From the NCBI GenBank assembly GCA_903857265.1, contig CAIODZ010000010.1:62001-126000 (forward strand): a stretch of 64,000 nucleotides of DNA, read 5' to 3'. This DNA is from an uncultured Phycisphaerales bacterium (lineage in GTDB: Bacteria; Planctomycetota; Phycisphaerae; Sedimentisphaerales; Anaerobacaceae). The notes beneath the pieces are model-generated. The model did not search any database. It saw only the letters and a program-made list of their open reading frames with translations, and was not told where the DNA came from. Below, piece after piece: positions 34,656-36,220 of this stretch (its first letter is position 1; each line of letters starts with the position of its first letter). The translations under genes were made by a program, and so were the position numbers.

Positions 34656-34966
34656 GAGAAATCGGACTCGTAAGACCGGTAGGGCAGGTCGGACGGAGAA
34701 GGATTAGAAATTTGAAATTTAAGATTTGAGATTTGAAACTGGATTCCTGCTTGCGCAGGAATGACAACAACAACCCCCCCCCCACCACGCGGGGTGGGGG
34801 CTAAATCAAGAACCCTCATTTTGTGGTCAAAAACAGGGGTGGCATTTTACCCAAATTAATATTATTGAAGTTTCGCAACATTGTTGTTGCATAAACATAT
34901 AACTTTTTATATTGTTCGTTGTTTATGGCTCATTGTTCGTAGTTTGAAAGTAAGGAAAAATAAAAA
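34656..34966. other. Hairpin-rich region upstream of the RepA-like ATPase
   Basis: No gene is present. Three palindromes stand out: ATTCCTGC (34743-34750) with GCAGGAAT (34755-34762); CCCCCACC (34779-34786) with GGTGGGGG (34793-34800); and GCAACA (34875-34880) with TGTTGC (34885-34890) in AT-rich DNA before the ATPase gene. The first belongs to a type of small hairpin repeat seen scattered through many bacterial genomes. The last could be an operator for the ATPase gene. Confidence 0.6.
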
Positions 34967-36220
34967 ATGGAAACGGTAAGTGAATGGGTGAAAAGGGCAG
35001 AAATAGTTTCGTTAGACAAGGTTACGCCATTAGAGATTGACTGGCTGTGGCCTAACCGTGTGCCGATGGGAATGCTAACGCTCATCGCAGGTGACCCGGG
35101 AGTAGGCAAAAGTTTTTTGACACTGTATATGGCGGCAATCGTTTCTTCGGGGCAAGGGTGGCCCGAAGAAACTTCGATACTCGATACTGGATTCTCGATT
35201 CTCGATAATGATGCGGAAGCAAATAAAGTAAAAGAACTGGGCCCCAGATCGGAGTCTGGGGTCTCCGTTGCGCTTCGAGGTTCGGTGATAATTTTGAATA
35301 ATGAAGATTCGGCGGAGAAGGTGATATGTCCGCGATTGGCGGCGTTAAACGCGGACCTGTCCAAGATAAAGACGATTCCTTTCGTATGGCACAGGGACAA
35401 AAACGGCAATCAATTCACCAACTATTTCAATATCATAACAGACCTGTTCGAGCTTGAGACGACAATCAGCGAAAACCCGGACACAAAGCTAATCATCCTC
35501 GACCCATTGAGCGGATTTTTCGGATGCCTCGATACGCACAATGATTCATACGTCCGCGCTATTTTGACGCCGATAGTTGCGCTTGCGGGCAAATACAACG
35601 TCGCAATCGTCGGAGTGATGCACCTTAATAAAGGCAGCTCAACCAAGGCGCTTTATCGAACGATGGGGTCATTAGCTTTTCCGGCGGCAGCACGGACGGT
35701 GTGGCTTGTAAGCAAAATACCCAACAGCCCGGACGACCCGAGACGGCTGTTTATACCGGCAAAGCATAATATATTAGAGAAGCCAACGACTTTGGCGTTC
35801 GAGATTAAAGACAACCGAATTGTTTTTGAAAAGGGGCCAGTGGATATTCCGGCTGAGGCGGTATTATCATCGAAAAGCAATATTGAAGCTCCTGAACGGA
35901 ACCGGGCAATCGAATGGCTCAAAAAACTATTGGCGGAGGGGAAAGAAATGCCTGCCAAGGAAATAGCAAAGATGGCAGCGGCGGAAGGTTTTACGGAAAA
36001 GACACTAAGAAACGCGAGAGAGGAAATAGAAATCAAATGTTTCCCTGAGTACGATGAGCAAGGCAACAAATTCTGGTGCTGGAAATTAAACGAGCCGATG
36101 AAGATACCCGGCATGGCTGAAATGCTTAGAAAGACACGTAAACAAGTGGAAAATATGCAAAAGTCCAAGCATGCAGCCGGAACATTAAGGGAAGGCAAAC
36201 AGCCGAACTGCCCTGCCTGA
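34967..36220 (+). CDS. RepA-like AAA/RecA-fold ATPase with winged-helix C-terminus and an in-frame repeat insertion
   Basis: The 417-aa protein has Walker A GDPGVGKS (residues 42-49), Walker B LIILDP and the following PLSGFFG, as in hexameric RepA-type helicase ATPases of plasmids and phages (AAA_25). The C-terminal 100 residues (RNRAIEWLKKLLAEGKEMPA...FTEKTLRNAREE) look like a winged helix for DNA binding. Between the conserved GQGWPEE and SVIILNNEDS lie about 36 extra residues (69-104) encoded by heptamer repeats and a palindrome. In relatives a short loop is expected there, so this is an insertion that has kept the frame. It stands next to tRNA-Leu with no other replication gene, suggesting a remnant of an integrated element. 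Confidence 0.8.
   Translation: METVSEWVKRAEIVSLDKVTPLEIDWLWPNRVPMGMLTLIAGDPGVGKSFLTLYMAAIVSSGQGWPEETSILDTGFSILDNDAEANKVKELGPRSESGVSVALRGSVIILNNEDSAEKVICPRLAALNADLSKIKTIPFVWHRDKNGNQFTNYFNIITDLFELETTISENPDTKLIILDPLSGFFGCLDTHNDSYVRAILTPIVALAGKYNVAIVGVMHLNKGSSTKALYRTMGSLAFPAAARTVWLVSKIPNSPDDPRRLFIPAKHNILEKPTTLAFEIKDNRIVFEKGPVDIPAEAVLSSKSNIEAPERNRAIEWLKKLLAEGKEMPAKEIAKMAAAEGFTEKTLRNAREEIEIKCFPEYDEQGNKFWCWKLNEPMKIPGMAEMLRKTRKQVENMQKSKHAAGTLREGKQPNCPA
35173..35261 (+). repeat. Repeat insertion inside the RepA-like coding sequence
   Basis: Five consecutive heptamers (TTCGATA, CTCGATA, CTGGATT, CTCGATT, CTCGATA) fill 35173-35207. A palindrome follows: CCCCAGA (35242-35248), loop TCGGAG, TCTGGGG (35255-35261), extended by two more outer pairs. 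The whole segment is translated. Confidence 0.75.

Follow-up and report, generated by a model that had tools for sequence, protein, structure and literature searches.

Heptanucleotide arrays and a short palindromic element in frame within conserved genes of an uncultured planctomycete and its relatives

The palindromic elements known as RPEs are 105-146 bp long, form long stem-loops and are found in frame within conserved proteins of Rickettsia, and also of Wolbachia (Ogata, 2000, as reviewed in PMC2229807). REPs tagged with GTAG or CGTC occur inside open reading frames (ORFs), including those of replication and repair genes, and have been reported in Planctomycetes; in recB of two Xanthomonas species, REPs that differ from each other occupy nearly the same position (PMC3733652). 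The heptanucleotide SSRs comprise the cyanobacterial heptamers and the G-rich heptamers of Xanthomonas and Nostoc (PMC4692102), the TAACTGA repeats of Beggiatoaceae (PMC4679880) and the GGACCGG repeats of Geobacter metallireducens (PMC2700814). These published families mainly have one unit sequence per genome and are mostly intergenic, those of G. metallireducens being located also within genes (PMC2700814). Heptamers have been reported to outnumber the other repeat classes of 5-11 nt in most of the bacterial genomes surveyed (as cited in PMC4679880); the cause is unsettled. An earlier proposal for bacterial heptamers is slippage by 7 nt, on the basis of polymerase contacts (cited in both PMC4679880 and PMC4692102). 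In-frame palindromes, the over-abundance of heptamers and heptamer elements within genes are, each on its own, already known.

The locus described here lies in a window of 64,000 nucleotides, which is the whole stretch of DNA analysed. The original prediction, made from the letters of this window, was that an ATPase gene contains a translated insertion of heptamers and a hairpin. This repeat-encoded insert is real (Table 1): TRF reports 4.9 copies of a 7-bp unit at 35174-35207 (85% matches), the sequence contains the hairpin GGCCCCAGA/TCTGGGGTC, which folds locally, the reading frame is unbroken, and there are homologues without the insert. In the window ATPase 38 residues separate W65-P66 from G105. 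The hairpin turned out to belong to a longer dispersed element of 44 bp, the end of which is near 35280; the interval originally given, 35173-35261, covers the array and only about half of the palindromic element, ending some 20 bp short. The folding energy of the whole 111-nt stretch does not stand out (z -1.46; as good a fold is reached by 13 of 200 shuffles). The spacer between array and palindrome (ATGCGGAAGCAAATAAAGTAAAAGAA) is possibly a remnant of the ancestral loop.

Table 1. Features of the ATPase locus, in positions of the window
Feature	Position	Strand	Basis
AAA_25 / RepA-like ATPase host gene, 417 aa	34967..36220	+	Pfam AAA_25, E 1.7e-26
Degenerate heptamer array TTCGATACTCGATACTGGATTCTCGATTCTCGATAATG, residues 69-82	35173..35210	+	TRF, lag-7 scan
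Non-repetitive spacer ATGCGGAAGCAAATAAAGTAAAAGAA, 26 bp, without repeat family	35211..35236	+	Read from sequence
44-bp REP-like palindromic element CTGGGCCCCAGATCGGAGTCTGGGGTCTCCGTTGCGCTTCGAGG, residues 91-105	35237..35280	+	DNA search of 21 genomes
Second heptamer array (ATTTGAA type), then palindrome ATTCCTGCTTGCGCAGGAAT; upstream of the ATPase gene	34703..34738	+	TRF, lag-7 scan, sequence

In the following, G000 is the own genome of the window, G001-G003 are its congeners and G004 is the genome of another genus. The genomes are drafts, several at least being metagenome-assembled (the own genome consists of 70 contigs), and portions of each were covered. The named relatives, MAGs of Phycisphaerales and Sedimentisphaerales, assign the window to Planctomycetota.

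Some 45 homologues of the ATPase, from the same order and from other phyla, have approximately 6-15 residues at the position where the window has 38, and the insert is absent from the homologues of distant genomes, as the original prediction had anticipated. Among viral contigs there were no relatives. The exception to the short loop is the nearest relative, G002 (Phycisphaerales bacterium fen_1345, PMZJ01000028.1), the ATPase of which is 89% identical downstream of the insert and carries at the identical site an insert of 100 residues with unrelated sequence. The DNA of this second insert is also 7-periodic, with a match of 0.47 at lag 7, lags other than multiples of seven reaching no more than 0.31. 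The AlphaFold2 model of the window ATPase (mean pLDDT 86) is matched by RecA-fold helicases, including RSF1010 RepA (1olo_A, TM 0.70 by target length). The pLDDT is below 50 for residues 70-82 and 84-95 of the insert, which are located between the helix 48-61 and the strand 106-111, and the insert is predicted to form an unstructured, disordered loop, the possibility of an exposed loop having been raised in the original prediction. On either flank of the insert dN/dS between the window and G002 is approximately 0.19, and both genes therefore appear to be under purifying selection, which suggests that the ATPase gene is working despite its insert. Most likely the insert has no dedicated function and is merely tolerated. 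At synonymous sites the two genes diverge by 0.47 before the insert (34967-35164) and by 0.20 after it; recombination at the insert is a possibility as one source of this split.

When 21 genomes were searched, matches to CTGGGCCCCAGATCGGAGTCTGGGGTCTCCGTTGCGCTTCGAGG were found in G004 (14, at up to 94% identity), G001 (four), G002 (two) and G000 (one further copy). The copies are mostly outside long ORFs and, when aligned, have common ends, CTGGG and CGAGG; the tail module gave 15 matches vs. 0 in the control. Judged by eye, a heptamer array directly precedes one G001 copy and also the second copy of the own genome. It could be proposed that heptamers and palindrome make up a single mobile element, comparable to the RPEs, which moves as a whole and is under selection to be translatable. 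Indeed, the order of array, GGCCCCAGA hairpin and tail is repeated at G000:C63:50317-50397, another heptamer family stands directly 5' of the CTGGGCCCCAGATCGGAGTCTGGGGTCTCCGTTGCGCTTCGAGG palindrome at G001:C40:45242-45274, and the leaders of four loci of the own genome repeat an array plus a different palindrome with polarity unchanged. However, the G004 copies have no obvious array (none of them directly follows one, as judged by eye), arrays are mostly without a hairpin, and both the spacers (2, about 9 and 26 bp) and the unit sequences vary. In general, adjacency of array and hairpin is not enriched, being seen for five of the 46 arrays from four congeneric genomes described below vs. about 16% in the control, so the array and the palindrome need not be mechanistically linked. 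We consider a single element of this kind rather unlikely. A fixed unit of heptamer plus palindrome was rejected, the copies having several different partners. Of the one insertion originally envisaged, both parts are present, but they represent two independent families separated by 26 bp and found with varied partners.

Transposase-like genes of the Y1_Tnp type are present in the own genome. The flanks of the three such genes, up to 1.5 kb, contain other hairpins and no GGCCCCAGA. One Y1_Tnp gene (G000:C50, L097:1156-1713) itself holds adjacent in-frame palindromes, GGGGCAGAC..GTCTGCCC and GGGCGAAC..GTTCGCCC-like, and a hairpin cluster adjoining another (G000:C43, L095:1973-2230) is possibly a REP family of the own genome. 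The leaders of four loci in the own genome share the order GGTTAGCCC-hairpin, GTATCGA heptamer array and start codon (L126:5190-5330, L131:6040-6180, L139:5430-5620 and L119:16580-16760), and at least two of these loci precede HNH/AP2-like genes.

The periodicity is by no means restricted to the ATPase gene. In 224 kb of the own genome, chosen blind to repeats, there are 16 arrays at lag 7; the remaining lags between 4 and 24 give 0-3 each, and shuffled sequence gives none. Four congeneric genomes (559 kb, a sample that includes contigs picked for mutL or purL and is hence not wholly unbiased) contain 46 lag-7 arrays. Nineteen of these are within ORFs, an upper count for coding arrays, given that the ORFs were called mechanically, with some extended at the N terminus and others probably spurious; lags 4, 5, 8, 10, 11 and 13 give 0-2 arrays in ORFs. 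The elevated ORF counts at lags 9, 12, 15, 18 and 21 are those expected from codon structure, and lag 14 is a harmonic. Among other family members, G004, G013 and G033 show arrays and others have none in 40 kb. The distant genomes of the homologue sample (438 kb) have no excess at lag 7 (seven arrays, compared with 15 and 10 at lags 8 and 10, respectively), and a universal period-7 effect was dropped on these grounds. Other copies in the own genome, another expectation of the original prediction, are many. A DNA search with the ATPase array recovered about 15 further copies (weakest E near 0.6), and the heptamer pattern CTNGATNCTNGATNCT (family CTNGATN) has 80 matches vs. eight for the reversed control. 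Three congeners have 40-51 CTNGATN matches each vs. 8-13 in the control. The ATPase array probably belongs to a genus-wide tendency to form and spread period-7 arrays.

Several arrays are in frame inside conserved genes, namely in MutL, within the linker that precedes the C-terminal domain, in the interdomain linker and at a second site of PurL, in a LysM protein and in a ParB-like protein, as well as in ValRS and WaaA of G003. At the first PurL linker, outgroups have a short LSEPSLPAK-like stretch and no array, whereas the congeners differ from each other: SSSSIEHQVSSIK is found in G000, GQRTEDRGRKTKEK in G001 and ITKTEDRRQKTEK in G003, while G002 has a palindrome cluster in place of heptamers. 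This cluster (G002:C26:79566-82484) consists of the in-frame palindromes GCCGTCGCCG/CGGCGACGGC and AGCGGCCG/CGGCCGCT within outer arms, and looks like a translated three-way junction. In mutL of G001 (G001:C103:39160-40944) an in-frame 24-bp palindrome, CCCCAAAAGGGGTCCCTTACGGGA, interrupts an array that is uninterrupted in G000 and G002. The array in ValRS of G003 replaces host residues, with a net gain of only 3 aa, and so is no simple insertion. ValRS of G001 (G001:C37:52626-55817) has roughly 90 to 110 extra residues after residue 477, in which 7-periodicity is not obvious. A systematic test of indels in orthologues gave only 16 insertions, two of them strongly 7-periodic, a sample too small to be of consequence.

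The repeated occupation of the same linkers across several congeners raises the question of function, and the heptamer elements of G. metallireducens have been annotated as predicted regulatory elements (PMC2700814). Linkers and loops might be selected for length or composition, or the arrays might be binding sites for protein or RNA. Yet the peptides encoded in different congeners are unrelated, the predicted order of the ATPase insert is low and most homologues manage without an insert, so that we regard functional inserts as very improbable. An artefact of metagenome assembly or an erroneous reading frame also deserves attention, since the named relatives are metagenome-assembled, the own genome is a draft and low-complexity repeats assemble poorly. 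However, period 7 is seen at the same linkers in the separate assemblies G000-G003, the MutL array is common to three species, long frames remain open and dN/dS is low on both sides of the ATPase insert. Such an artefact is largely excluded, and we give it hardly any weight.

At the second PurL site, TCGTCGCTCG is found in G001 and G002, four TCGTCGC units in G003 and AACTTAA units in G000. It is possible that TCGTCGCTCG represents a seed and the G003 array its expansion, a pattern expected for growth from a seed. These putative seed and expanded states, together with the degeneracy of the units and the published hypothesis of 7-nt slippage, are in favor of pure local polymerase slippage, by which random heptamer seeds would expand wherever tolerated, with no dispersal. 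Against this, arrays of the TCGATAC type are about tenfold over control genome-wide, the family being present throughout the genus and patchy over the phylum, and units recur beyond the composition-shuffled expectation. By unit sequence, the 46 arrays group as five multi-member clusters (sizes 22, 7, 5, 3 and 3, the largest loosely chained) and singletons, with 83 close pairs vs. a mean of 29 and a maximum of 43 in 200 shuffles, the shuffle keeping only the composition of each unit. Slippage alone does not account for unit families that recur at unlinked loci, and we therefore infer some copying between loci from the sequences compared. Pure slippage is in our opinion unlikely.

What the comparison demonstrates is a strict period of seven, unit families recurring over loci and over four congeners, in-frame sites in housekeeping proteins, within linkers and loops, and congener-specific arrays at the same linker. 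The constant period with a changing unit points to a 7-nt step during synthesis. The explanation we favor as the probable one is that slippage-prone heptamer families and a REP-like element are both tolerated in permissive linkers and in a surface loop. According to this explanation, slippage in steps of 7 nt would lengthen the arrays, starting either from short seeds of period 7 or from pieces of arrays, the latter being copied from elsewhere through template switching or ectopic conversion. The arrays may then serve palindromes as tolerant landing sites, and purifying selection would retain only the cases that are in frame and located in loops. Since seven equals one modulo three, a heptamer free of stops is open in all three forward frames, so that an insert has just two requirements, a tolerant loop and an overall length that is a multiple of three; for TCGATAC, GGACAGA and TCGTCGC all six frames are free of stops. 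A more far-reaching alternative is an active process of the lineage with a built-in 7-nt step (a polymerase, an HUH nuclease or a template-driven enzyme), which would write or copy arrays into chromosomal sites, including genes, and continually overwrite protein linkers with new heptapeptide-repeat sequence; we hold this to be quite unlikely. The mobile repeat able to invade genes, as originally suggested, agrees with the in-frame copies inside conserved genes, and the dispersed copies, on which its mobility is judged, suggest that both palindrome and arrays may move.

The sister species are natural replicates, in which the linkers of PurL, MutL and the ATPase bear differing 7-periodic arrays and there are candidates for both the seed and the expanded state. 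The questions of why the period is seven and how arrays move become testable through strain comparison, and a route is outlined whereby non-coding repeats turn into protein sequence in essential genes. An incomplete literature search, which is no proof of novelty, found no prior report of congeners whose housekeeping proteins carry unlike heptamer arrays in the same linkers and, with thin coverage of subscription papers, nothing specific on planctomycete heptamers.

Among the described systems, the RPEs share with this locus the in-frame palindromic repeats in conserved proteins, which are also intergenic and are tolerated rather than useful; here the copy in the window ATPase is in frame and the other copies are mostly intergenic. 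The resemblance to Rickettsia elements originally noted is thus apt for the in-frame insertion and fails for a single RPE-like repeat, as here a palindrome and a separate 7-periodic array are found, with unit families varying by locus and species. Identification of the palindrome as a Rickettsia RPE was rejected, its 44 bp vs. 105-146 bp and its missing CGTC/GTAG tags setting it apart. Similarly to the tagged REPs it is a short palindrome inside an ORF, although its ends carry neither GTAG nor CGTC, and the heptamer arrays are not REPs. The REPIN/RAYT system (PMC3116915) also has short non-autonomous palindromes, and the own genome encodes three Y1_Tnp proteins; however, no CTGGGCCCCAGATCGGAGTCTGGGGTCTCCGTTGCGCTTCGAGG copy is near their genes (flanks up to 1.5 kb) and no doublet structure was seen. 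With the bacterial heptamer SSRs the arrays share tandem 7-bp units dispersed at many loci, but in place of a single dominant unit there are several unit families here, and the arrays at the same linkers vary among congeners.
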